39,383 nt of DNA from Kiritimatiellota bacterium. Lineage in GTDB: Bacteria; Verrucomicrobiota; Lentisphaeria; Oligosphaerales; JAADHN01. The position numbers and the translations under genes were made by a program. This document shows, one piece after another, positions 1,992 through 18,917 of the stretch. Positions within the stretch are counted from its first letter, which is position 1. Every line of letters starts with the position of its first letter. Under the pieces are notes generated by a model. That model saw only the letters and a program-made list of their open reading frames with translations, was not told the DNA's origin and ran no database searches. Location of the stretch: positions 1 to 39,383 of the forward strand of contig JAADHN010000105.1 of the NCBI GenBank assembly GCA_013151865.1, written 5' to 3'.

Positions 1992-3056
1992 ATGGTGTTA
2001 AAGGCAGACCTCAAAGACAAGGAGTCGGCACGGTTGCGGTATGATCGGGGGTTGTGCTATTACCACCTGCTGAACCGGGTGGCGGGGACGCGGAGTTTTT
2101 TGCCGTTCGGAGACGCGGAGAAGGAACAGTTCTTCCGGTTGGCGCTGGAGCTGTCGAAGTTGTATTGCCTGGAATTGATCTCGGTGGTGGTGATGTCGAA
2201 CCATTACCATATCGTTTGCGCGGCGCCGGCGGCGGAGCCGGAAGGAGAGAGCGCGGCGGTCCAGGGGTCGGATGTCGGCCCGCGGGGACGTCCGCACTGC
2301 CGGGGGGACGCCGGGGAGATCAAAAGGCGGTGGCGGGCGTATTACGGCGACAAGCGGATCGAGCCGAACTGGGACGATCCGGAGGTCGTTGCGGCGTGGC
2401 GGGCGCGCATGCGGGATATTTCGAAGTTCATCCACGACCTGCAGCAGCGGTATACGTGCTGGTACAATCGAACGCGGCCGGAACGGCGCCGGGGCCGGTT
2501 GTGGGCGGACCGCTACAAGAACGTGATTCTGGAAACGGGCGAGGCGGTGTGGGACTGCGTTCGTTACGTGGAAATGAATCCGGTCCGGGCCGGTTTGTGC
2601 TCGAACCCGGCGGAGTATCGTTTCTCGACCTGGGGCCGGTTCGCCGGCAGCGGCGCGCATCCGTTTGCGGAGTCCGCAGCCCGACATTTGCGTCCGTTCC
2701 TGTACACGTTTTTCGGGGATCGCGCGGCGGGGTTGACGGACCGTGAGGTTTTGTTCGAATTTCAAGCGGACATGGCGCGGGTACTGACTGGGGAGAGCGG
2801 TGGAAGTTCGGAAGAAATCGCCCAGGCCCAACAGGCGGCGCGGAAGGGATCCGGGTTCGTACTGACGGTCCGGCGCCGGGTGCGGTACTGGTCGGACGGC
2901 GCGATCATCGGATCGAAGCTGTTCGTGCGCACCGTGGGGGCGGAATTGATCGGCCGCGAGCGAGCGACGAGGAAGCAATTGGCGCGGTCGCGGTCGGCCG
3001 GTGGGGGAAATTTGGCCGCGCTGTATTCCTGGCGGTTCCTGCGGGTGGATGTGTAG
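1992..3056 (+). CDS. REP-associated tyrosine transposase (Y1_Tnp, IS200-like)
   Basis: A 354-residue protein starts at ATG 1992, behind a GGGAGG at about 1978; a TTG at 1968 is an alternative. The HUH metal-binding motif is visible as MSNHYHIV (His71 and His73). A likely nucleophilic tyrosine lies in QRYTCWYNR (Tyr154, with Tyr158 as second candidate). The typical RAYT block YVEMNPVRAGL follows near residue 190. The protein is about twice the length of E. coli RAYT; the extra C-terminal part (from about 260) contains VRYWSDGAIIGSKLFVR, also seen in longer transposases of this group. Expected role: single-strand DNA cleavage and joining at REP palindromes, which occur immediately upstream. The frame is intact and the catalytic residues are present, so it may be active or domesticated. 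Confidence 0.88.
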   Translation: MVLKADLKDKESARLRYDRGLCYYHLLNRVAGTRSFLPFGDAEKEQFFRLALELSKLYCLELISVVVMSNHYHIVCAAPAAEPEGESAAVQGSDVGPRGRPHCRGDAGEIKRRWRAYYGDKRIEPNWDDPEVVAAWRARMRDISKFIHDLQQRYTCWYNRTRPERRRGRLWADRYKNVILETGEAVWDCVRYVEMNPVRAGLCSNPAEYRFSTWGRFAGSGAHPFAESAARHLRPFLYTFFGDRAAGLTDREVLFEFQADMARVLTGESGGSSEEIAQAQQAARKGSGFVLTVRRRVRYWSDGAIIGSKLFVRTVGAELIGRERATRKQLARSRSAGGGNLAALYSWRFLRVDV

Positions 3057-3333: not shown

Positions 3334-3834
3334 ATGAGACGACCAGTCGGAGTGCGGCCGTGGTTTTCTGAAATCGAGTTGCTGGCGTGGCTGCGGGAAG
3401 CGTCAAGTGCCGAAGAACACCGGAGGCGAATGGTGATCTGGCTGACGCATTTTCGGCGGTGGCATGCACGCGAGATCGCAGAGATGGTCGGCGTTTCGGT
3501 CCAGGCAGTCTGGAAATGGGTTGGTCAGTACAATAGGCATGGTTTTGCTGGGTTGATCCGCCGAGGGCGTGGGGGGCGCCGCTGGTCGTACTTGAGCGAA
3601 GATCAAGAACGCGATTTACTGCACTCGTTGGAGGAACGGACCCAGCGCGGTGACATTTTGACCGCCAAGCAGATCTTGCCGCTGGCCTGCCAAGCCGCGG
3701 GTCGCAAAGTGTCGCTGGGCTATGTTTATGCTCTTCTGCATCGCCATGACTGGCGCAAACTGGGCCCGCGGCCCCACCATGCGAACAGCGATCCCGAGGT
3801 CCGGAAGCGCTTCAACAAAAACAGCCAGAATTGA
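3334..3834 (+). CDS. IS630-family transposase, N-terminal frame
   Basis: This 166-residue frame encodes the DNA-binding half. ATG 3334 has AGGAG six bases upstream. A helix-turn-helix lies around residues 40-70 (EIAEMVGVSVQAVWKWVGQY), followed by the winged-helix region of IS630 transposases (QILPLACQAAGRKVSLGYVYALLHRHDW). The frame ends at TGA 3832-3834, where the following frame continues at -1. The end of this frame (RFNKN) joins smoothly to QPELIGEYA in the -1 frame, as expected for one continuous IS630 transposase of about 350 residues. Confidence 0.85.
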   Translation: MRRPVGVRPWFSEIELLAWLREASSAEEHRRRMVIWLTHFRRWHAREIAEMVGVSVQAVWKWVGQYNRHGFAGLIRRGRGGRRWSYLSEDQERDLLHSLEERTQRGDILTAKQILPLACQAAGRKVSLGYVYALLHRHDWRKLGPRPHHANSDPEVRKRFNKNSQN

Positions 3835-4394
3835 TCGGCGAATATGCCGCGCAAGCTCCAAAAGGGATGAAGGTGCGCTTGCTTTTTGAAGACGAAGGAC
3901 GTTTCGGTCGGATCAGCGACCGCCGTCGTTGCTGGGCGCCCCTTCCATTGCGTCTCATCGTCGGACATCAGGTCATACGGCAATATATGTGTGCCGTTGT
4001 TGCTCATTGCCCCTTCGACGGTCGGATTGCCGGCCTGATCCTGTCATGGTCAGATACGGTCACCATATCGATCTTCCTGGCCCATACCGCTCGCCAATTC
4101 GCCGACGGTTTCTGCATCATCATTACGGACGGGGCGGGCTGGCACCGCGCAAACGAACTCCGCATACCTGACCATATCCGCTTGCTTTTTCTGCCGCCCC
4201 ACAGCCCTGAACAGAATCCCGTCGAGCATGTATGGGAGCATCTGCGGGAATACCATTTCCGCAATGCCGCATTCCCAGCTCCGGACAGCGTCGAAGCCGC
4301 GCTGATGTCTGGGATTCGCAGCTTGATCGGCAACCCCGAACTCGTCAAATCATTCGCACTATTCAACTGGATCAAAACTCCACTTTTGACGTAA
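3831..4394 (+). CDS. IS630-family transposase, C-terminal DDE frame
   Basis: This frame holds the DDE catalytic domain (DDE_3). The first Asp is in LLFEDEGRFGRIS, the second in FCIIITDGAGWH, and the Glu in LPPHSPEQNPVEHVWEHLRE. All three catalytic positions look intact. A TTG at 3831 overlaps the upstream stop as TTGA, but independent initiation there would give a protein without a DNA-binding part. It is more likely reached by -1 frameshifting at the A-rich site near 3814-3821 (AACAAAAAC), or it marks a disabled copy with a single-base indel. Confidence 0.82.
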   Translation: MIGEYAAQAPKGMKVRLLFEDEGRFGRISDRRRCWAPLPLRLIVGHQVIRQYMCAVVAHCPFDGRIAGLILSWSDTVTISIFLAHTARQFADGFCIIITDGAGWHRANELRIPDHIRLLFLPPHSPEQNPVEHVWEHLREYHFRNAAFPAPDSVEAALMSGIRSLIGNPELVKSFALFNWIKTPLLT

Positions 4395-4485: not shown

Positions 4486-6009
4486 ATGATGCCCCGTTTA
4501 AAGGGGGCAATCGGACTCGCCCTTTTGGGGCTGTTGGGTGCTGTTTGCATTCCGGCGACCCCGGCGGAGACGCCGCCGGTCGGCCCGACGCCCTTCCGCA
4601 CTGCCCTGTTCGTCGCCCGGATCCGGTCCGTGGTCTCGACGGCACTTCCCCGCGCGATTGTGCGTCTTGCCGTGCCCGTGACCAATGAGTACCAGCGCAT
4701 CCACCGGGTGACGATCGTCCCCACTCCGTTCCGCCTCGAGAACGTCCCGTCCGGCGGCCGGGTCGCGTACCTCGAGTACCGCGATGTCCAACCGGGTGAA
4801 GTCCGCTGGGCCTGGATGCTGGTCCGCTGTCGATTGCGATCCTTCACACCGAAACGCAAGAAGCGCCTGCTCCCCATTCCGTGGGAGGTCAAAGCCCGCT
4901 GCCTCGGGAACGCCGACAAGGTCAACGTGCGTTCGCCCCTTCTGCAGCGGCAGGCCGCTCTCCTCGTGAAGGCCGAAAAAACGCCCAGCATGGAACGAAT
5001 CAAGGCCATCAACGAGTTCATCACACGGGAATTCGAGTACAAGCTGGACGACCGTCAAGTGGACGCGGATGCCACCCTGGCAGCGCGTTCCGGATCCTGC
5101 AGCGAGCTGTCGCGGCTCTTTGTCGCCCTGGCCCGTGCCTGCAACGTGCCTGCGCGGTTTGCAGCAGGCAGCATTGTCCGCCGGAGGCGGACGGCTTGTG
5201 TGGATCTCGTCCACCACAGGTGGGTCGAAGTTTTCCTACCCGACTACGGCTGGTTCCCCATCGACATCAGCACGAATGTGACGCGGAAAGATCCAAGCGC
5301 TCGGTTCGGCGCTTTGGCTCCGAAGTGTCTGGTTTACACCCGCAACGCGGGATTGCGAGACAGTCCACTGTATGCCACCGCATTCACCTTGGCCGGCCCA
5401 CGTGACACCCTTGCCCGGAAAGTGCGCACCTACTGGTTTCTCCAGGCCGAGCTGTTACCGGAAATGCTGCGCGTGCTTCGCCGCGGCACTCGCGGGAGGA
5501 AGGCCGAGGAGCGGGTCCGCAGAGCCGTCGCCCTGATGCGCGGGGTGTACGCGGTCCCGTTTCTCGCCGTGGCATTATACGAACCCATCGCCGGGGGACA
5601 TCCGGAAAAGGCGGTCGCCGGCCTGGTCCGAACGAGGGTGCGCACGGCCATCGTGCCGCTGGCGGATTTTGCGGAGTTCGCCACACCGAATCAATGGCCG
5701 GCCGTGACCCAGGGATTGAAGCAATTGACCACGCTCGAATTCGAGACGCCCGACGCCTGGCACGACTGGCTGTATTCCAAGGCAGGCCGCCGCTTCCTCT
5801 CCGGCGGTCCGCCCCGCAAGACCTTGCCCGAATCCCTGCCCGCCGAGAAGCTCCCACAGCCGTCCGCGAGATCTATTACTCCCTCCATTCCGACGGGGGC
5901 GCCGTCGGAACCTCCGGCCGGCGGCTTGATCGACAACTCCCCGGCGTTGCCAAAACGGCAAAGTCCACAACGCCGGAAGCCGGCGCCACTGCCTCGAAAC
6001 CGACCATGA
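4486..6009 (+). CDS. Exported transglutaminase-like cysteine peptidase family protein
   Basis: A 507-residue protein. I start at ATG 4486 because a signal peptide (MMPRLKGAIGLALLGLLG, cleavage near ATPA/E) follows at once; a GTG at 4453 and a second ATG at 4489 are possible, and no strong Shine-Dalgarno site is seen. Residues 30-170 form a beta-rich N-terminal region like those preceding bacterial transglutaminase cores. The core contains the full catalytic triad: Cys205 in SGSCSELSRLF, His243 or His244 in HHRWVEVF, and Asp260 in WFPIDIS. The C-terminal 190 residues are helical and end in a Pro/Arg-rich tail. Bacterial members act as peptidases or amidases on peptides or cell-surface substrates; the substrate is not evident. 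The last 134 bases overlap the convergent heparinase gene. Confidence 0.75.
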   Translation: MMPRLKGAIGLALLGLLGAVCIPATPAETPPVGPTPFRTALFVARIRSVVSTALPRAIVRLAVPVTNEYQRIHRVTIVPTPFRLENVPSGGRVAYLEYRDVQPGEVRWAWMLVRCRLRSFTPKRKKRLLPIPWEVKARCLGNADKVNVRSPLLQRQAALLVKAEKTPSMERIKAINEFITREFEYKLDDRQVDADATLAARSGSCSELSRLFVALARACNVPARFAAGSIVRRRRTACVDLVHHRWVEVFLPDYGWFPIDISTNVTRKDPSARFGALAPKCLVYTRNAGLRDSPLYATAFTLAGPRDTLARKVRTYWFLQAELLPEMLRVLRRGTRGRKAEERVRRAVALMRGVYAVPFLAVALYEPIAGGHPEKAVAGLVRTRVRTAIVPLADFAEFATPNQWPAVTQGLKQLTTLEFETPDAWHDWLYSKAGRRFLSGGPPRKTLPESLPAEKLPQPSARSITPSIPTGAPSEPPAGGLIDNSPALPKRQSPQRRKPAPLPRNRP

Positions 6010-7804
6010 CCGTATTGGGATTGGGCGAGTCCCACGGGTTGGGCGGCGTTGCCGTCTCCCACGTCCGCCAGTCTGTCTTGGCCGGCGACATATCGTGCAG
6101 GGTCAAGCGGGCGTTGTCCAGCCTCAATTCGAGAGCGGGGCCGGCCGATTCTCCCGGTTTCCCCGGAGTAATCATGCCCCAGCGGACAACGGCCCCCGGT
6201 TTGAGCCCGGTCAACCGGTCCCGAATGAAGACCTCGCCGGAAGACAGGAGGGCCACCCCGCGACGGACCGTTTCGGCCTGGCCGGCGTACACGGGGCTCA
6301 TATCGACCACTGCATGGGGGAAAGGGGACGCGGCCGAAAACCGAATGATCTCGGCAAATCCTCGTGCGATTTGGAGACGCCCGTCGATCACCAGCGTGTT
6401 GTGTCCCAGGTTGCTCTGACGGAAAATCTTCCATCGGTCGGACCTCTGGGCGCTACTCCAAAGACTCATGCCGCGTGATTCGATTCGGTGATAGCCCTCC
6501 GCTCCCAAATCGACGGCCCAGCGCACACCGTCGGCATCGAGAACAAATGTCCCGATATCCATTTGGCCGTGCGGTGCGGAAGGCGAGCCGGCTTTCAGCG
6601 CCACGAAAGTCGCATTGGGGTCGCTCCACGACGCACGAAAGACGGCGATGGGCGTACGTCCCTCCCCCTTCCAAGACAAGGGCATGCGGACCGAAACATT
6701 GGCGGGGGCCTTCTCCATCCACAGCAACGCCGTCGGGAGAAGGCGGTCGCTTTGGCCCGCGGCCGTCTTGGGGTCCAGGCGACGCAGGCGTTTGGCCAGG
6801 ATGCCCCGCTCGAGCAGGAGCCAGTCGGGCCGCTCGAACCGCTTCGACAGCCAGTACAACGGCGGTTCCGGGCCACGACCGGCGCCACCGTCCGAGTAGT
6901 TGAAGAACAGTCCGGAGGGTCCAGTGACCACGTTGATGTATTCGCCGGTGCGGTCGAATCCCGGGGCCTTGCTCAGGCCGAAGTCCGTTCCGAGGGCGCT
7001 CTCGAGTTCCGCGATGAGGAGCACGTTGTAGGTAGTCCCGTATCCCCAGTATCCGGGTCCTTCCGGGTAACTCCCATTGGGCGCGAATGCGGCCATGGAA
7101 CGCGGCACGTTTCGGAGGGCGCGTAACACGGTTTTCGCCGCCAACTCCGGTTCGTCTTCCATCACGGCCAGTGCGCCGGCGACCATGCCGCCGTGGCAGA
7201 CCTGTCCCCAGTTGTTCGACGCCCGGACCCAGTGCCGATAACGCCGGTTGTTCGGAACGCGGAGCGCCTTGTCCAAGATCGCATCACGGATGGTTTCGCG
7301 ACTGGCCGGATCGAGTTCGTTGTATAGCCAGTCATAGCCCAAAGCAAGGCCGAAAGCCATTTCCGCCACATCCAGGTAATGGCTCGGGTTCCAGTCCGCG
7401 AACCGTGCCGCGGCCAACATCTCCGTGCGGCAGCGGTCTGCGTATTCACGTTTGCCGGTAAGGTGATAAGCCGTGGCGAGCCAAACCACGCGTTTGAGGC
7501 AGGTCCTCGAGACGCCCAGGAGCCGGCGTCCCCGTTTGATGCGCCGGACCGGGGCGACCGGCAGAATGGCATCCGCCTGCTCGATCACTGCTCTGGCAAG
7601 CGCCGAGCGTTCCGCTGTTCGACGGACGTATTCGGGCAGGGCGGCCAAAGTTGCGGTGTCCGCAAGAATACGCGGGTGTTTCTTGGGCGCGCGCCGCACC
7701 CATTCTCGGACTTGGTCCAATTTGATCTTGGGCGGGTAAATCCAGTCGGCGCCGGCCGTGACGGTCGAGGCGGCGGCAACGCCGGCAACGGCAATGGCAT
7801 TCAT
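5876..7804 (-). CDS. Heparinase II/III family protein, exported
   Basis: A 642-residue protein from ATG 7804, with AAAAGGAG eight bases upstream; the longer frame to 8014 runs through a tandem repeat and is rejected. A short signal peptide precedes ADWIYPP. Residues 40-340 match the alpha-helical toroid of heparinase II/III lyases, with NNWGQVCHGGMVAGAL (Asn198, His204) and SYPEGPGYWGYGTTYN (Tyr252, Tyr255). Residues 385-620 match the beta-sandwich domain, with PHGQMDIGTFVLDADGVRWA (His412) and LGHNTLVIDG (His468). Family members cleave uronic-acid glycosidic bonds by beta-elimination (heparin, heparan sulfate, alginate, other uronates), giving unsaturated sugars; the GH88 gene 4 kb away uses such products. 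Family members often have HGHxD where this protein has HGQMD. Substrate cannot be assigned. Likely periplasmic. Confidence 0.85.
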   Translation of the reverse strand: MNAIAVAGVAAASTVTAGADWIYPPKIKLDQVREWVRRAPKKHPRILADTATLAALPEYVRRTAERSALARAVIEQADAILPVAPVRRIKRGRRLLGVSRTCLKRVVWLATAYHLTGKREYADRCRTEMLAAARFADWNPSHYLDVAEMAFGLALGYDWLYNELDPASRETIRDAILDKALRVPNNRRYRHWVRASNNWGQVCHGGMVAGALAVMEDEPELAAKTVLRALRNVPRSMAAFAPNGSYPEGPGYWGYGTTYNVLLIAELESALGTDFGLSKAPGFDRTGEYINVVTGPSGLFFNYSDGGAGRGPEPPLYWLSKRFERPDWLLLERGILAKRLRRLDPKTAAGQSDRLLPTALLWMEKAPANVSVRMPLSWKGEGRTPIAVFRASWSDPNATFVALKAGSPSAPHGQMDIGTFVLDADGVRWAVDLGAEGYHRIESRGMSLWSSAQRSDRWKIFRQSNLGHNTLVIDGRLQIARGFAEIIRFSAASPFPHAVVDMSPVYAGQAETVRRGVALLSSGEVFIRDRLTGLKPGAVVRWGMITPGKPGESAGPALELRLDNARLTLHDMSPAKTDWRTWETATPPNPWDSPNPNTVMVGFEAVAPASGVVDFAVLATPGSCRSSRRPEVPTAPPSEWRE

Positions 7805-8060: not shown

Positions 8061-11000
8061 TCATTGCCGGGCTTGCTGGAGATTCAACTCGACCCCGCAG
8101 AGCAGGGGTGGGCGTTTCGAGCCCGGCGTCTGGGTCAGAGAAATCGTCAAGTCCTTCCGCACGGCTACATTGCGGAATTCGCGCACCAGCGTTCGATCGG
8201 GTCCGCCCGCGGCCTTGCAGACGTCCAACGCACCGACCACACGTCCGCCTTGGAGGGCCACATCGAACAGGCGCTCGCCCGGCGCGGCGCCTGCGAACTC
8301 CGCAAAAAAGAGGCGAACGGTATACAGGGCCGGAGTCGAGAATTCCCCGCGAACCTTTGACTTGTCGAAAACCGGCCCCAGAGTGGAGACATTCCGCGTC
8401 CAGGCCTCGACCCGACTGTTCTTCTTACCCGACGCCGGCTGCCGGAAGGGACGGATTACAAGGGAGCGGAGTCCTTCCGCTCCGGAAGCAGCGACCCAAC
8501 GATATGGACCGGACACGTACAAGCTATAGCGCCGGAACCATCGCGGTCGTTCGGGGTCGGTCCAGACCGGAATGTCCGGAGACGGGCCGCCCACACTGGG
8601 CACCTCGAGCCAGAGCACTCCGGCACTGTCGGTGTGGTTGCCCGGCGCTCCCAGGTTCAGGCCCACGCGCTTGACCGGGGTGGGTGCGGCTGGCGGCGGG
8701 AACCACTCGAAAGACCATTCCTCCACATCGTCGGCATTGACCAGCGCCAGGGACGCTTGGTTGGGGTAGGCGCAAGTGCATGTGCGGGTGTAATCGGGCG
8801 CGTTGAGCACACCATCGGCCGGGACAAGGTTCGAGGTGCAACCGGATTTGAATCCACCCAGACTCACGACCCCGTGGCCGGCGCGCAAATCGAGGTATGA
8901 AGCAGTGGCGGAACGGAAGGTGAGCAGGTCTTCCCCGCCGATCGCGGTATTGCACCCATAGAAGCGCACCCAAGCCCACGGGATCGAGGCGCCCGTCAGC
9001 GGATCTTCGGCGAGGATCGGCTCGCCCGTACGCAGGGAGTACGCTCCGCCGGGGGAGGCGGACTTGGTTCCATACCGGACTTGAGTGATAATCCGGTCAC
9101 GGTAAATGATGCACGGGCCGAGGTACTTCGCTTGGTTCCGCCACAGCAGCTCCCCGGTGCGCCCCCGGAACGCGGCCATTCCTTTGCCGACCTCGTCTCG
9201 CAGCCGGTCGGAAGAACGACTCCCCGCCTCGAGCAGCACGTCGAACTCGGCGGAATAGCCGAGCCAAGTGCCGAACACGTCCTTGCGCGTGCTCCACACC
9301 TTCCGCCCGGTGCGACTGTCCAGGGCCATGAGTTCGGCCGGAGCATCGGACCGGATACCCCGACGACGAAGCAATCCCAATCGTTCCGGCGTCATGCCGT
9401 CGATACAGAAGACCCGTTTACCCGCCGCCACAACGGTATTGTGCCGGAAGTTATACTGTGCGGGACGTCGCCAAAGGACTGTCCCATCATGCCGATCGAG
9501 AGCCACCATCCAACGGCTGCCCCGCCCGAACCGGGAGTTGAGTTCCATTGTTTTTGAAGTGCTGAAGACCGGCACGGCCCCGACAAGAAGCAGGTCGTCC
9601 AGCACTCCGATATAGCCCCATCGGGGTCGGGCAATGTCGCCCAACGGCGGTAGTCGAAAGGTTGCTTTCAGTGCCCCGGTCGCCGCGTCGAGGACCCGGC
9701 ACTGCTCACCCGCAGCGATGTAGACCCGATCCGCCGTAGCGGCGAAATTGGTGCCGTATGCGTTGGCGCCGGGAATATGGACTTGATTGTACGAGAGATC
9801 GTACGGGTCCGGCCGGTACGTCGCGTCGTAATACATGCCGAAGGTGTCCATTTCCGGCAGTTTCGCCTGCCACAGAATCTTCCCTGTATAGACGTCCCGT
9901 GCGCTCAGGAGCCGAATCCCCTCGATGAACAGACGGCCGCCGACGACCTGCTCGGGGGGACCGTGACCGTGGCGCGGCAGGACGTCCCGGTTCGGCGGGC
10001 CGCCGAACCAGAGGACGCCGAACGGGGGGCGGACGAGCTGGTCGGTCGAGCGGACCGTATTAGCCGCATTCCCATACTGGAGCACCCACGTCCCCGCGCC
10101 GGGCAGGGCGCCCGAGCGAACCAACTGCACCCACTCGCCCCGAACTCGAAGGTCCGCGTTGGCCAAATCCGCTTTGCGAACGGTCTCGGCAAAAGCGCGA
10201 CGGTCCTCGGGCCGAAGCCGCAACCAAGCGCTGCCGCCGTACGGCCGGAGCACCTCGAATACGGCCTTTGCGAACTCCGCGCCGCGCGCGAAACCGATGG
10301 CACGCGGGGCAGGCGCCACGACAAGCGCCGCGCAATAGGGCGCAAGCTTGAGCGACAGGAGTGTCCCCGGCAGCACGGCGGCCCGGACGCCGTAGATGCC
10401 GGATAAACTCCACGCCTCTCGCGTCCGGCGGGTTTCCGTCTTGTCCTCCGAAATCAACACCAACTGCTCGATGTCCGGCGAAGTGTCCAGGAGGGCCTCC
10501 GCCAGGGGTCGGCCTCTGCTGCCAAGCACGAGGGCGCGTCCGCCGGTCAGGTCCGAGTCCGCGAGGATCCGTCGGGCATCGGCGAGGTCCGATGTCGGCG
10601 GCTTCTCCGGGACGGCCGTGGCCCGCGCCACCGCCGGCGGCCCCGCGCCGGGAGGGCCGAAGCACAGGATGTCTCCGGCAACCGTCGCCACCACCAACCG
10701 CCCTGCCCCCGCCAACATGGCGCCGGCGGCGGCAGGGAGCTTGTACTGCCACGAAACGCGCACATCCGCGGCTGCATTAGGCGGCCGAGGGACTGGGACC
10801 GCAAACGCCGTTCGGTCGGCGGCCGCACCGAAGATCTGCCTGCCCGCCTGCAAGAACAGGCGCACCGGTTTGACATCGAGCTGCAGGCGCTGCAACAGGA
10901 CCGGACTGCGGACGGTCTTTGTTCGGTTGCGGCCGCGGCGGTCTTTCCTGACGACACGCTTTTCCCGGACCGTTCCCAGGGCCCAAAAGTCGATGGTTCC

Positions 11001-12026
11001 CCCATCGCCGAGTCCGATGGCGGCGGATTCCGAGAGAATGTCCACCGGAAGCGAGAAGAGATGGTCGCCCGATTTCAAGTCATACACTTCGCCGTGATTG
11101 ACGAACCACGACCGACGCGCAGCGACACCGAAACCGCCGTATTTTTTGTTCGCGGCGTGATGGTAATAAAGAAACTCTCCCGTGCCGCGATCATACGCTG
11201 CCGGCACCGAGCGCCCGCCGGGCACCAAGAGCGTACCGTCGCAAACGGCCAGGGGCCCCTGTGGGGCAACGCCCCCAAACGCGGGACTGGAGTGCGGCTG
11301 GAGGGAGTAAATCTGACCGCTGCCCGTGTTGGACCACCGGGGCCGACCATTCCTCGGATCCACGGCATGAATGAAAGTCCCCATGAACGGCCATATGCCC
11401 GCGGCGAAGTAAACTGTTCCGTCGAATACCACCGGCCCGCCCCGCGCCGGACGCGAAGAGATCAACCGCCCATTGCCGAGCACGCGCCGCGACTCCGGTG
11501 CGCCGGCGGTTTTCCAGACGAGCCGCCCCGTCGTCGGGTCAAGACAATACAGGCTCCCGTCGTCACTGGTAAAAAAGAGGCGGTCGCCATACACCGCCGG
11601 GGCAAACCGCACGGGCCCGTCAGCGTAGAATCTCCAGCGTTCTTGCCCGGTCTCAATGTCGTAGGCCGTTACACTGTCCTGCACCATAGAAGAGACGAAC
11701 AGCAGGCGCCCCGCAATCACGGGCTCGTAGGACGCGTCGAAGCGCAGCTTGTACTGGGTCCACGGCCAGCAGGGCCGAGGCCGAGGCAATCGGATCCGCC
11801 AGCGCAATACGAGACGGTCCGGCAACGGGGCCGGGGTGTAGGCCGTGCGTCCGGCGTCGAACCGCCACATGGGCCAGTCGGCGGCCCCGGCGGCAAGCGC
11901 TTGCAGAATAAGGACAAGCGTCAGGGCGAAATCCGCCGAGAAACGCCGGCAGGGGCCGCGTCGTCGATGCGCGAGACGCGGGACAGCTGAGGGCGGGACG
12001 TTGCAACGAATCGAGTAAGACGCCAT
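8061..12026 (-). CDS. Exported PQQ-like beta-propeller protein with Rossmann-like insert and malectin tail
   Basis: A 1321-residue protein from ATG 12026. The open frame extends 576 bases further but runs antisense into the GH88 gene. A long n-region is followed by a signal core (ALTLVLILQALAAGA) before ADWPMWRFDAGRTAY, the common opening of PQQ-like/BamB-type propellers. Residues 50-460 and roughly 690-1110 hold repeated blades (LYCLDPTTGRLVWK, VYIAAGEQCRVLDAATGAL). Between them, 495-605 resembles a class I methyltransferase Rossmann fold (GGRALVLGSRGRPLAEALL, EVLRPYGGSAWLRL) but lacks the glycine-rich SAM motif. A Cys-rich block (GCTSNL, YTRTCTCAYPNQASLAL) precedes a C-terminal malectin-like domain (about 1112-1321; VGLNLGAPGN, ERLFDVALQGG). 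Proteins of this layout are known mainly from planctomycete-like genomes; the function is unknown. Periplasmic or surface carbohydrate binding is an inference from malectin and the neighbouring enzymes. Confidence 0.82.
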   Translation of the reverse strand: MASYSIRCNVPPSAVPRLAHRRRGPCRRFSADFALTLVLILQALAAGAADWPMWRFDAGRTAYTPAPLPDRLVLRWRIRLPRPRPCWPWTQYKLRFDASYEPVIAGRLLFVSSMVQDSVTAYDIETGQERWRFYADGPVRFAPAVYGDRLFFTSDDGSLYCLDPTTGRLVWKTAGAPESRRVLGNGRLISSRPARGGPVVFDGTVYFAAGIWPFMGTFIHAVDPRNGRPRWSNTGSGQIYSLQPHSSPAFGGVAPQGPLAVCDGTLLVPGGRSVPAAYDRGTGEFLYYHHAANKKYGGFGVAARRSWFVNHGEVYDLKSGDHLFSLPVDILSESAAIGLGDGGTIDFWALGTVREKRVVRKDRRGRNRTKTVRSPVLLQRLQLDVKPVRLFLQAGRQIFGAAADRTAFAVPVPRPPNAAADVRVSWQYKLPAAAGAMLAGAGRLVVATVAGDILCFGPPGAGPPAVARATAVPEKPPTSDLADARRILADSDLTGGRALVLGSRGRPLAEALLDTSPDIEQLVLISEDKTETRRTREAWSLSGIYGVRAAVLPGTLLSLKLAPYCAALVVAPAPRAIGFARGAEFAKAVFEVLRPYGGSAWLRLRPEDRRAFAETVRKADLANADLRVRGEWVQLVRSGALPGAGTWVLQYGNAANTVRSTDQLVRPPFGVLWFGGPPNRDVLPRHGHGPPEQVVGGRLFIEGIRLLSARDVYTGKILWQAKLPEMDTFGMYYDATYRPDPYDLSYNQVHIPGANAYGTNFAATADRVYIAAGEQCRVLDAATGALKATFRLPPLGDIARPRWGYIGVLDDLLLVGAVPVFSTSKTMELNSRFGRGSRWMVALDRHDGTVLWRRPAQYNFRHNTVVAAGKRVFCIDGMTPERLGLLRRRGIRSDAPAELMALDSRTGRKVWSTRKDVFGTWLGYSAEFDVLLEAGSRSSDRLRDEVGKGMAAFRGRTGELLWRNQAKYLGPCIIYRDRIITQVRYGTKSASPGGAYSLRTGEPILAEDPLTGASIPWAWVRFYGCNTAIGGEDLLTFRSATASYLDLRAGHGVVSLGGFKSGCTSNLVPADGVLNAPDYTRTCTCAYPNQASLALVNADDVEEWSFEWFPPPAAPTPVKRVGLNLGAPGNHTDSAGVLWLEVPSVGGPSPDIPVWTDPERPRWFRRYSLYVSGPYRWVAASGAEGLRSLVIRPFRQPASGKKNSRVEAWTRNVSTLGPVFDKSKVRGEFSTPALYTVRLFFAEFAGAAPGERLFDVALQGGRVVGALDVCKAAGGPDRTLVREFRNVAVRKDLTISLTQTPGSKRPPLLCGVELNLQQARQ

Positions 12027-12296: not shown

Positions 12297-13682
12297 ATGC
12301 AAATCGAGCGGCACATCGAGGCGCAGGCTCTCCTGCCCTTGCTGAAACGCTTTTGGGCCGTTTCGGCGGCCAAGCTCCGCCTGATCGACGCCGAGTACGA
12401 TCCGTCCCGGGGCTCGCCGGTGTTCACCGCGAACGGGAAATACACCACTCGGGGCTGGACCGAGTGGACCCAAGGCTTCCAGTACGGGGCCTGGCTGCTG
12501 CAGTTCGACGCCACGGACGAAGTCGAATGGATCGAACGAGGTCGGGGGCTGATTCTCGAGCACATGGCGCCTCATCTGACTCACACCGGCGTGCACGACC
12601 ACGGCTTCAACAATGTGAGCACCTACGGCAACCTCCTGCGGCTAATGAACGAAGGCCGCATTCCGGAAGTCCCGTGGGAGCGTCGGATGTACGTGCTGGC
12701 CCTCAAGTGTTCCGCGGCCGTTCAAGCTTCACGTTGGACGCCCCTCCGCGACGGCTCGGGCTTCATCTATTCGTTCAACGGACCCCATTCGCTTTTTGCC
12801 GACACGATTCGCTCACTCCGTGTTCTCGCTTTGGGACATCGCCTCGGCCACGTGCTTATGGCCGAAAACGACACGCCGGTTTCGCTGCTCGAGCGTTTGG
12901 TGGCGCACGCACGGACCACGGCGGCGTATTCGGTTTATTACGGAAAGGGCCGGGACGCTTACGATGTGCGCGGCCGGGTGGCGCACGAGAGCATTTTCAA
13001 CATCAACGACGGCCGATACCGCTGCCCGAATTCGCAGCAGGGCTTTTCGCCGTTTACCACGTGGACCCGCGGCCTCGCCTGGGTCATGCTCGGGTTTGCG
13101 GAACAGCTCGAATTCCTGGAAACCTGCCGGGACGAGGACTTGGTTCTTTTGGGCGGTCGGGAGGACGTCGCGGGGACCTTGCTTGAAGCGGCGTATTCGA
13201 CCTGCGATTTCTACCTGGCAAACACGGCGGCGGACGGCGTTCCATACTGGGACACGGGAGCGCCGGAACTTCATCGCCTGGGCGACTGGCGCACGCGCCC
13301 GGCGGAGCCTTTCAACGATTGGGAACCGGTGGACAGTTCCGCGGCCGCCATTGCCGCGCAGGGCCTACTGCGACTGGGCCGGTATCTGCGGAAAACCGAC
13401 CGGAACGCGAGGCGGGCCGACGCCTATCTCCGGGCCGGCCTGGCCCTGGTGCGAACCTTGATCGAGCCTCCATACCTTGCCCTGGCGCCCGACCACCAGG
13501 GGCTGCTGCTGCACTCCGTGTATCACCGTCCCAACGGCTGGGATTTCGTACCGGCGGGGAGGCAGGTGCCGTGCGGGGAATCGAGCATGTGGGGCGATTA
13601 CCATTTGCGCGAAGCCGCCCTTCTGGCCCAGCGCCTCGCGGAGGGCAAACCATACCTGACATTTTGGGGGCCTTCAGCATGA
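12297..13682 (+). CDS. GH88 family unsaturated uronyl (glucuronyl) hydrolase
   Basis: A 461-residue protein from ATG 12297, with GAGGAA 11 bases upstream; an in-frame TTG at 12201 lacks support. It has no signal peptide, so it should be cytoplasmic. GH88 hallmarks are spread through the protein: HDHGFNNVSTYGNL (Asp101), SLFADTIRSLRVLALGH (Asp169), SIFNINDGRYRCPNSQQGFS, TTWTRGLAWVMLGFAEQ, DSSAAAIAAQGLLRLGRYL and GESSMWGDYHLREAAL. By analogy with the Bacillus enzyme, Asp101 and Asp169 are candidates for the acid/base pair. The reaction is hydration of the C4=C5 double bond in unsaturated uronic acid ends left by polysaccharide lyases, releasing a keto-deoxy-uronate. The stop overlaps the start of the cupin gene (ATGA). 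It diverges from the propeller gene across 270 bp, where only a lone -10-like TATAGT (12210-12215) is visible. Confidence 0.9.
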   Translation: MQIERHIEAQALLPLLKRFWAVSAAKLRLIDAEYDPSRGSPVFTANGKYTTRGWTEWTQGFQYGAWLLQFDATDEVEWIERGRGLILEHMAPHLTHTGVHDHGFNNVSTYGNLLRLMNEGRIPEVPWERRMYVLALKCSAAVQASRWTPLRDGSGFIYSFNGPHSLFADTIRSLRVLALGHRLGHVLMAENDTPVSLLERLVAHARTTAAYSVYYGKGRDAYDVRGRVAHESIFNINDGRYRCPNSQQGFSPFTTWTRGLAWVMLGFAEQLEFLETCRDEDLVLLGGREDVAGTLLEAAYSTCDFYLANTAADGVPYWDTGAPELHRLGDWRTRPAEPFNDWEPVDSSAAAIAAQGLLRLGRYLRKTDRNARRADAYLRAGLALVRTLIEPPYLALAPDHQGLLLHSVYHRPNGWDFVPAGRQVPCGESSMWGDYHLREAALLAQRLAEGKPYLTFWGPSA

Positions 13683-14137
13683 CGATTACAGACCTCGAGA
13701 AGATCCCTGGCCGCAGTTATCCGGCCGGCCGGCACACCCGGAACCTTGCCGGGGGCGTCGCGCCCATTCAGACCAAGAACTTCTCCATGGGGTACGTGAC
13801 GCTCGCTCCAAAAGGCGGGCAGGTTCCCTGGCACAACCACGAGCAGGAAGAAGTTTACTTCATTCTGGCCGGCACGGGCGAGATGTGCGTCGGCACCGAA
13901 CGCCGACTCCTGCACGGCGGCCAGGCGGTCCACATCCCTCCCGGCGAATTCCACCAACTCACCAACGTGGGCGATGCCCCGTTGACCATGGTGTACTGCT
14001 ACGGCCCGGCCGGACCGGTCGAGCACTGGCGGCAGGAATTGGAGGGGTCCCTTCCGAAGGCGGGGGTGGATGCCCCGCCTTTGCCTCCCGGCGCTCGCCC
14101 TCAATGCACAGCCCCGGCCGCGAAAACGAACCGCTGA
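13679..14137 (+). CDS. Cupin-domain protein, possibly KdgF-like
   Basis: A 152-residue protein from ATG 13679, overlapping the GH88 stop by four bases, which implies translational coupling; GGGGG lies ten bases upstream. Both cupin motifs are complete: motif 1 GGQVPWHNHEQEEVYFILAG (His52, His54, Glu58) and motif 2 GGQAVHIPPGEFHQLTN (His92). These four residues would bind a divalent metal. The last 30 residues are Pro/Ala-rich and probably disordered. KdgF cupins open the cyclic 4-deoxy-5-keto-uronate that unsaturated uronyl hydrolases release, so the coupling with GH88 suggests the same role here; this is inference, since small cupins are functionally diverse. A mannose-6-phosphate-isomerase-like or sugar-isomerase cupin is the main alternative. 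Confidence 0.8.
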   Translation: MTITDLEKIPGRSYPAGRHTRNLAGGVAPIQTKNFSMGYVTLAPKGGQVPWHNHEQEEVYFILAGTGEMCVGTERRLLHGGQAVHIPPGEFHQLTNVGDAPLTMVYCYGPAGPVEHWRQELEGSLPKAGVDAPPLPPGARPQCTAPAAKTNR

Positions 14138-16766: not shown

Positions 16767-18917
16767 ATGGAGCCAATGGCCCAACACCGAACCAAATCCG
16801 CCCCGCCTCTGCTGGACGCCATGAACGGCGTCGATGTGGAAGAGCGGTTCATGGCCGCCGCGGACGGCTGTCGGGAAAGCGCTGAGATGCTTTGTCGCGC
16901 GGCGGATGCGGTGCGACCGGCGAGCTTGTCGACATGTCCGGCCCCCGTACGAGAGGCCTGGAACGCAGGGGCGGAACTCTTCTGCGAATCCCTGGAGGTC
17001 ACTGCCGACAATGCCGACTGGGCCTCGGGACTCTATCTGGCGCTGGCGCGAATCGGTGTGGAACTTCCTCTGCTCAGAGATCGTCTGGCCCAGGCGGCCC
17101 GACGTCGTTTTCCCGAATATGCCGATCCGTCCGGCTTGCTCCGTGCCCTGGGCGTTCACAATCGGGAAGTGCCTTTGGCGGAAATCGCCCGACGCTGGCG
17201 CCTTTTCGAAGCCCTGGCCCCGGGACGCAGGTGCTGGCTCCCGGCTCAAGGCTTCGGAGAAATTGCGGGGCTGGATGCGGTCCAGAATGAAGTCGTCATC
17301 GAATTCGCCCGACGTCGCGGCGTTTCGCTCCAAGTTTGCCTCGCGGCCCTCGTGGTGGTCGCGCCCGGCAGTCTTTTTGCCGATCTCCTTGAGAACAAGC
17401 CCCGACCGGAGCCCAAGAAAACCGGCCCCGAAATCCGGGACGAACTGCTCGGGGCACTGATTCCGGCGGGGCGCTTGAGAGAGAAAGACCTCGAAGCCCT
17501 CCTGGTTCCCTCGATATGGACTGCGGCCGAATTCCACGCAAGACTCTACCCCGAAAACGCCACGGACACCGAGGCGACCCCCGAGAGGGACACGGCCGGG
17601 CGCTCGGTGGAACAGGCCCGTGATTTGCAGGAACTCGTGGAGGCTCTGAGGAATGCGGCGTCCGACTGGGCCCCCGGGCCCCGAGAAACCGCCCGAATGG
17701 CCGAACTGCTGCGCAACGGCGCTCGTCGCGACAAGCAGGAGACGCGGATGGTTGAAGCCCTGGCCCGCGTCCAGAGCCTCTGCGCGGACCAAGCCTGGTG
17801 GGCCGATCTGCTGCGGGAATTGAGTGCGTCCGCCTTGTGCTGGCAGGCGGAAGACTCTTTCGTGCGCTTGTCGCTTGGCCTGGCCGGAAAACTCCAGCTC
17901 TCCTGGTTCGAGGCGGTCGTCGGCGCCAGGGGGGCCGAATGGTTCGCGGCCGCGGCCCTCGGATTACCTCTGAAACTCCTCGGTCGTGCTGCGGAAGCCC
18001 TCGCGACCACGGACCGGGAGCACCTTTTGGAGGAAAAGATCCTGGCACAGGCCCGAAGCGGTACCGCCCCGGCCGATGTGCTGGTTTGGCTGTGGCGTAA
18101 AGGCGGCCCAGAGCGGGAGGCGCTCCGCGACCCTTCTCTACTGTTTCGGGCACTCGGCGCGGACACTCGGCGCGGACCGTTCATCGAAGCGCGCAAGGTC
18201 CTCAGAAAACTGCTGGTGGACGATGCCGGATTCCAGCGTTTCATGGTCCGGGACGGGGATGCGGACGCCGCCGGCACGCTCGTCCGTGCCGTGCGGCACA
18301 CCGCCGCCCTGACCCCGGGCGAACGCCAAAGCATCTTGGTGAAACTCGTGCGACTCTACCCGGGACTCAAGAACGTGGTCGAGCAGAAAACCACCGTTGC
18401 CGCCGCACCGACACAGCGGCCGCAAACGTCTTTCCGAAGCTATGAATTGCGACGCCGCGAACTCGAGGAAATCATCAACGTCCGGATTCCCGCGAACAGC
18501 CGGGCCATCGCCCATGCCCGGAGCTACGGCGACCTGCGCGAAAACGCCGAGTACAAAACCGCCAAAGACGAGCAGCGCCAACTCGGCCGACGGCGCACCG
18601 ACCTCGAACAGATGTTGCATGAAACCATGCCGACCGACTTCTCGGATGTCCGTATTCAAAACCGGATCCTGCCCGGCTGCACGGTCGTCCTCGATTGCGG
18701 CCCGCACGGAGAGGAAACATACCATGTACTCGGACTTTGGGACAGCGACCCGGAACGGCGGATTCTCGCCTACGGGACCCCGATGGGCCAAGCCCTGCTC
18801 GGGCTCAGCGTCGGCGATTCCGTCGAACTGCCCGACGGCACGCCGGCCGTGATCCGCGAGATTCGCCCACTGTCGAAAGAATTGCAGGCCTGGGTGCGCG
18901 GGGAAGATCTCCACTGA
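16767..18917 (+). CDS. greA: GreA/GreB-family transcription elongation factor with long N-terminal extension
   Basis: A 716-residue protein from ATG 16767, with GGAG six bases upstream; a longer frame back to 16656 lacks such a site. The C-terminal 155 residues are a GreA module: an N-terminal-type coiled coil (YELRRRELEEIINVRIPANS) with the acidic tip GDLRENAEYKTAKDEQ (Asp589, Glu592), which stimulates transcript cleavage in backtracked RNA polymerase, then the FKBP-like globular domain (TPMGQALLGLSVGDSVELPDG). The first 550 residues are a helical extension rich in Ala, Leu, Arg and Glu, without a recognised domain. Usual GreA is about 158 residues; a 715-residue GreA with a similar layout is known in Chlamydia, supporting a PVC affinity. 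The extension's role is unknown. Confidence 0.85.
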   Translation: MEPMAQHRTKSAPPLLDAMNGVDVEERFMAAADGCRESAEMLCRAADAVRPASLSTCPAPVREAWNAGAELFCESLEVTADNADWASGLYLALARIGVELPLLRDRLAQAARRRFPEYADPSGLLRALGVHNREVPLAEIARRWRLFEALAPGRRCWLPAQGFGEIAGLDAVQNEVVIEFARRRGVSLQVCLAALVVVAPGSLFADLLENKPRPEPKKTGPEIRDELLGALIPAGRLREKDLEALLVPSIWTAAEFHARLYPENATDTEATPERDTAGRSVEQARDLQELVEALRNAASDWAPGPRETARMAELLRNGARRDKQETRMVEALARVQSLCADQAWWADLLRELSASALCWQAEDSFVRLSLGLAGKLQLSWFEAVVGARGAEWFAAAALGLPLKLLGRAAEALATTDREHLLEEKILAQARSGTAPADVLVWLWRKGGPEREALRDPSLLFRALGADTRRGPFIEARKVLRKLLVDDAGFQRFMVRDGDADAAGTLVRAVRHTAALTPGERQSILVKLVRLYPGLKNVVEQKTTVAAAPTQRPQTSFRSYELRRRELEEIINVRIPANSRAIAHARSYGDLRENAEYKTAKDEQRQLGRRRTDLEQMLHETMPTDFSDVRIQNRILPGCTVVLDCGPHGEETYHVLGLWDSDPERRILAYGTPMGQALLGLSVGDSVELPDGTPAVIREIRPLSKELQAWVRGEDLH

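Follow-up and report, generated by a model that had tools for sequence, protein, structure and literature searches.

The overlapping GH88-like and cupin genes of the window (the whole 39,383-nucleotide stretch of DNA analysed here) belong to a dispersed gene module in which the cupin accompanies a Gfo/Idh/MocA oxidoreductase (hereafter Gfo) and is exchanged, one for one, with an unrelated TIM-barrel protein. This cupin/TIM exchange around the Gfo partner is the new part of the analysis. Our reading of the module, to which we give a probability of roughly 0.55, is that a GH88-like protein, a cupin or TIM-barrel isomerase and a reduction by Gfo and an SDR would lead to KDG, which a kinase and an aldolase would then process.

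The overlap of the GH88-like and cupin open reading frames is confirmed. Both frames were chosen independently by a codon-usage gene caller, with the coordinates and the ATGA overlap that the first-pass annotation had given. That annotation had also described GH88 and cupin as fused, which does not hold: the genes overlap and are not fused. The features are as follows.

12297-13682, + strand: GH88-like (alpha/alpha)6-barrel protein, 461 aa, from a divergent clade and predicted to be an unsaturated uronyl hydrolase
12597-12599, + strand: Asp101 codon of the GH88-like protein, aligning with UGL Asp88 and SagUGL Asp115
12801-12803, + strand: Asp169 codon of the GH88-like protein, putative equivalent of UGL Asp149 from a weak profile alignment, invariant in 37/37 sequences
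12984-12986, + strand: His230 codon of the GH88-like protein, aligning with UGL His193
13679-13682, + strand: ATGA start/stop overlap of the GH88-like and cupin genes, read in the sequence
13679-14137, + strand: cupin of a single domain, 152 aa, for which a sugar isomerase or ring-opening activity following the GH88-like protein is predicted
13832-13840, + strand: His52-Asn53-His54 codons of the cupin, predicted metal motif
13850-13852, + strand: Glu58 codon of the cupin, predicted metal ligand
13952-13954, + strand: His92 codon of the cupin, predicted metal ligand

Relatives of the GH88-like protein align with it from its first residue, which supports the ATG at 12297 as the start of the gene. 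Because both proteins have close relatives (57-69% identity for the GH88-like protein and 50-71% for the cupin in the aligned sets, with a maximum of 75% for the cupin in a scan of named genomes), the pair is more than a chance arrangement. A script placed a GH88-like gene directly before the cupin at 13 loci, window included; the two genes overlap by 4 nt in the window and at four further loci and by 7 nt at two, and are separated by 15-167 nt at the remaining six. The pair is conserved, recurring within the dispersed module.

To describe this module we surveyed 240 genomes of the window's phylum, in which the counts and Fisher tests take every genome as an independent case, without regard to phylogeny. 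The GH88-like gene was found in 53 genomes, the cupin in 33, Gfo in 71 and the SDR in 118. Gfo is present in 52 of the 53 GH88-like genomes and in 32 of the 33 cupin genomes, and the SDR in 51/53 GH88-like and 60/71 Gfo genomes. The cupin occurs in 26 of the 53 GH88-like genomes, and the GH88-like gene in 26 of the 33 cupin genomes. The strict partner of the cupin is the Gfo/Idh/MocA protein, and its association with the GH88-like gene is looser. Scanning named genomes with the cupin gave 59 loci, mostly from Poribacteria; the other titles name Rhodothermales/Rhodothermia, Balneolaceae, Fodinibius, Salinivenus, Bacteroidetes, Chthoniobacteraceae, Armatimonadetes, Chthonomonas, Terriglobia, Acidobacteria and Spirochaetaceae. 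Members of the Gfo/Idh/MocA cluster lie near the cupin at 56 of the 65 loci read, and where a GH88-like gene is linked the SDR is usually linked too. Whole-genome searches covered 25 of the 59 cupin-bearing named genomes and found the GH88-like gene in 19, among them the 13 Poribacteria selected, in all of which it lies away from the cupin. The window genome has its Gfo (contig C91, 146973-148109), its SDR (contig C27, 5195-5956) and its KDPG aldolase on other contigs, among unrelated neighbours.

Operons that do not contain the cupin have, in the same slot between the GH88-like gene and Gfo, a gene of 256-280 aa. Pfam assigns this replacement to the AP_endonuc_2 TIM barrels, which are unrelated to cupins. 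With about 277 aa, the gene in the cupin slot has the length of KduI, which was considered as the replaced enzyme but rejected on this Pfam assignment. The TIM barrel was detected in 38 of the 240 genomes, always with Gfo and never with the cupin, so that the 71 Gfo genomes divide into 32 with the cupin, 38 with the TIM barrel, none with both and a single one with neither (G106, in which the GH88-like match is split and contains stops). Among the 27 GH88-like genomes that have no cupin, 25 have the TIM barrel. Both proteins are closely linked to Gfo, lying within 1.5 kb of it on one strand in 30/38 genomes for the TIM barrel and 24/32 for the cupin. The exclusion is also seen in the 19 Gfo genomes without a GH88-like gene (6 with cupin, 13 with TIM barrel), which indicates that the cupin reaction belongs more to the Gfo step than to GH88. 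Twelve of these 19 genomes are also without any Pfam GH88/105 match, and in them the core formed by Gfo and cupin or TIM barrel has to draw its substrate from elsewhere or serve a different purpose. A tree of 85 Gfo proteins, the one correction for phylogeny applied to the survey, was built by a quick method and has the window's own Gfo on a long branch; on it the cupin/TIM label switches at least six times, and at least three of these switches are forced by starred branches. The best explanation for a slot that is filled once per genome, by either of two unrelated folds, and that has switched repeatedly is that both proteins catalyse the same reaction. Metal-dependent sugar isomerases are known with the cupin fold as well as with the TIM-barrel fold. 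Together, the exchange with the TIM barrel and the linkage to Gfo over GH88 suggest an isomerase step for the cupin.

The cupin is a single domain (Cupin_2, E 1.8e-18, Pfam) with a predicted model of pLDDT 94. The first-pass annotation had credited it with a complete metal set, and His52, His54, Glu58 and His92 are indeed present in the window protein; the set is however not family-wide, since His52, Glu58 and His92 are invariant in 43 aligned cupins, of which 26 have Gln and 17 have His at position 54. At E<=0.1 the Pfam listing for the cupin has nine families, and the KduI family PF04962 is not one of them. The same annotation had proposed a KdgF-like role, and we consider it unlikely that the cupin is a KdgF analogue that accelerates opening of the unsaturated monouronate ring, with the TIM barrel doing the same elsewhere. 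The window cupin has the metal ligands of KdgF (His, His, Glu/Gln, His), their spacing (+2, +6, +40) is identical to that of BeKdgF, and its model matches the KdgF structures with VIA Z of 14.5-15.1 and Foldseek TMt of 0.86-0.88; a GH88-linked cupin has also been named KdgF, by annotation only, in a published account (PMC13274419). Fold scores of Z about 15 are however also obtained for DddK, TM1459 and others, so that KdgF is not set apart. The catalytic residues reported for BeKdgF are Asp102, Phe104 and Arg108 (PMC11381880). When positions are matched by their distance from the metal His, with no superposition, the first corresponds to Met, Phe or Leu at position 104 of the 43 cupins, the second keeps an aromatic residue as Tyr106 (43/43) and the third corresponds to Pro110 (43/43). 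Alignment columns 52-110 are gap-free, and residues 98-123 contain no invariant Asp or Arg in the 43 sequences. Because the Asp and Arg positions hold Met/Phe/Leu and Pro, the cupin would not be filed as a KdgF. The PDB matches of the cupin are many and shallow; no KdgF was found among the 60 PDB sequences listed of the 67 matched by the cupin profile, and a search of plasmids for KdgF with a 4e2g fragment returned one archaeal cupin only. The window cupin itself gave only partial matches of 37.5% identity on plasmids, on four cyanobacterial ones. Moreover KdgF ring opening also occurs spontaneously, and an obligatory slot that two folds can fill would fit an isomerase better. What stands of the proposed KdgF-like role is that the pair lies in a uronate-type module; the catalytic Asp and Arg of KdgF are missing by position and the strict partner is Gfo.

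Small cupins can also act as sensors. An HTH_3-cupin regulator is found in the module, adjoining its genes, at 10 loci (family checked for three), and one could imagine that the single-domain cupin is likewise a regulator or sugar sensor and not an enzyme. We regard this as very unlikely, since the cupin has no DNA-binding domain match and many invariant residues, is replaced by a TIM barrel, and would duplicate a regulator role in which an HTH-cupin already serves.

The GH88-like protein scores 16.6 bits against Pfam GH88 (PF07470), under the curated cut-off of 26.6, and one of its relatives scores 18.1; NCBIfam gave no match for it. A profile built from 37 relatives nevertheless reached the Bacillus UGL 1vd5 at E 5e-17. 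Its AlphaFold2 model (pLDDT 92) was compared with the PDB using Foldseek, and the 12 best rows were all UGL structures, with TMt of 0.83 for 1vd5, 0.84 for 2fv0 and 0.85 for 3wiw. Trp57, Phe61, Asp101 and His230, invariant in 37/37 sequences, align with UGL Trp42, Phe46, Asp88 and His193, which are named together with Asp149 as important residues (PMC4528949). Asp169 is a putative counterpart of this Asp149, as it falls on the Asp of the GH105 motif WLDGLYM in an hhalign alignment with a probability of only 49%; phmmer with a fragment, run to map Asp169, returned only ribosomal-protein noise. We infer that the first gene encodes a divergent GH88-type protein, with a hydrolase activity predicted from fold and active-site residues. 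The earlier call of an unsaturated uronyl hydrolase is thus consistent with the UGL fold and the aligned residues, although the Pfam score remains below the family cut-off.

The gene neighbourhood points to uronate processing, as had been proposed, since the module in which the conserved pair occurs also includes reductases, a KDG kinase and a KDPG aldolase. The KDPG aldolase was clustered at nine loci, eight of them near module genes (L028, L132, L140, L141, L142, L147, L190 and L192), the ninth (L182) being the unlinked copy of the window genome. A KDG-type kinase is present at three loci (L028, L141 and L142). The Pfam/NCBIfam check covered seven of the nine aldolases and all three kinases, and no kinase scored over its equivalog cut-off. 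Searches of the window genome for KduI (threshold E<=1e-30) and for Pfam GH88/105 (threshold E<=1e-15) gave no match. Because the aldolase and kinase are linked and this genome is without KduI or Pfam GH88/105, KDG is the probable end of the module, which likely converts an unsaturated uronate to this compound. In the proposed route the GH88-like enzyme, judging from its fold and active-site residues, would hydrate the 4,5 double bond and release 4-deoxy-5-keto-uronate. The cupin, a predicted metalloprotein, would isomerise or ring-open this product, most probably as an aldose-ketose isomerase of the KduI type. Where the cupin is absent the AP_endonuc_2 TIM barrel would do its job, as exclusion and switching suggest. 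Gfo and the SDR would then reduce the product to KDG, and the KDG kinase and KDPG aldolase, encoded beside the module at several loci, would finish the route. Against this proposal, a route of the KduI/KduD type would require only one of Gfo and SDR, the cupin is tightly tied to Gfo, the module genes of the window genome are scattered over contigs, and KduI is not clearly depleted in Gfo genomes (8/71 versus 30/169 others, p 0.14).

A different chemistry could be envisaged in which Gfo oxidises a sugar to a 3-keto-glycoside, and the cupin or TIM barrel eliminates or isomerises, with hydration of an enol ether by the GH88-like protein and reduction of the product by the SDR. The NCBIfam model closest to Gfo is levoglucosan dehydrogenase, at 64 bits far below its cut-off of 650. 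A TIM-barrel sugar isomerase-like protein has been described as a beta-eliminase in an operon with oxidoreductases (PMC10628242), and a combination of oxidoreductases with TIM-barrel isomerase-like proteins is also the layout of 3-keto-glycoside routes. The 19 of 71 Gfo genomes that have the core with no GH88-like gene would also fit. We nevertheless find this chemistry improbable, as uronate chemistry agrees better with the UGL residues that the GH88-like protein keeps and with the KDPG aldolase and KDG kinase genes linked to the module.

Several further genes were recorded around the module. A PRK12745-type SDR is enriched in the KduI genomes of the 240-genome survey (29/38, Fisher p 2e-4); in the few genomes compared by eye it lies on a different contig from KduI. 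The loci L057 (Rhodothermales) and L060 (Rhodothermia) share two PhyH dioxygenase-like genes beside the module, as well as a Meth_synt_2-like gene and a protein of about 630 aa that has no Pfam assignment; the families were determined at L057. A FAD_binding_2 (fumarate-reductase-like) protein is found near the Gfo core at L138 (8734-10821; family assignment checked for this locus), L147 (gene 11) and L191 (gene 1), and relatives of D-2-hydroxyacid dehydrogenases recur at L012, L140 and L191.

A heparinase-like lyase nearby in the window had been taken as the maker of the GH88 substrate. We rejected this neighbour as a pathway partner: the gene (5876-7804) is on the - strand, opposite to the GH88-like/cupin pair, a 1321-aa gene (8061-12026, -) lies between them, and no match to the heparinase-like gene was found at any other locus fetched. 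The 6.2-Mb window genome has 12 matches to the heparinase II/III C-terminal family (PF07940), so a single nearby copy says little. The family was found in 32 of 40 GH88-like genomes (out of the 53) and in 15 of 40 controls (out of 151 listed), all picked by hand ahead of the result (p 1e-4); as GH88-like genomes tend to be larger, we give this difference little weight. Elsewhere in the window, the 1321-aa protein, divergently encoded from the GH88-like gene, has PQQ/BamB-like propeller repeats and a C-terminal malectin domain. A 713-aa protein (16776-18917, +) has GreA/GreB domains only at its C-terminal end (residues 555-685), its long N-terminal part having no Pfam match at E<=1e-4. Transposase genes or remnants lie at 1992-3056 and 3352-4394 (both +), with an IS200-like Y1_Tnp and an HTH and DDE_3 pair.

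We found no description of the module as a whole in the open-licence literature searched, where PMC12838403 and PMC13274419 were the relevant papers retrieved for it. Tentatively, and at less than even odds, the cupin and the TIM barrel would join KduI and DhuI as two further unrelated isofunctional isomerases of the GH88 product. Each would act with a new Gfo-type uronate reductase and, together with a divergent GH88 clade, they would make up a so far undescribed pathway to KDG, widespread in groups that include Poribacteria, Rhodothermota and Verrucomicrobia. Some genomes, the window's included, have the module with neither KduI nor a Pfam-recognised GH88, so annotation would miss their likely use of acidic polysaccharides. 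The one-for-one swap of cupin and TIM barrel, repeated on the tree of their partner, makes a clear case in which to test how unrelated folds would come to share a reaction.

Compared with known systems, the GH88-like protein has the fold of UGL (CAZy GH88; 1vd5, 2fv0, 3wiw), with four aligned functional residues and a plausible fifth in Asp169; its identity to these structures is 18-22% in the Foldseek alignments and it is longer (461 versus 377 aa). The cupin resembles KdgF (YeKdgF, HaKdgF, BeKdgF) in being a single small cupin with the same ligand spacing at the same predicted stage of the pathway. In contrast to KdgF, the window cupin has an extra C-terminal segment, and its family has Gln54 in most relatives and Gfo/Idh as strict partner. 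In Verruconatronum alginivorum, 002468 encodes a cupin, 002469 a GH88, 002470 an HTH-3/cupin regulator and 002471 a KDPG aldolase, and loci 02465-70 were upregulated on alginate in one proteome replicate (PMC13274419). Its region 002465-002471 has neighbouring cupin, GH88, regulator and aldolase genes, possibly orthologous to those here, and this likeness of layout speaks for the proposed uronate route; unlike the module described here, the available part of that account mentions neither a Gfo partner nor a TIM barrel in place of the cupin (PMC13274419). KduI and DhuI are reported as non-homologous isomerases for the GH88 product, and the KduI/KduD and DhuI/DhuD clusters combine an isomerase and a reductase on it (PMC12838403), as we propose for the present module. 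The difference from these clusters, as far as they are described there, is that the candidate isomerases are here a small cupin or an AP_endonuc_2 barrel and that the strict redox partner is a Gfo/Idh/MocA protein.
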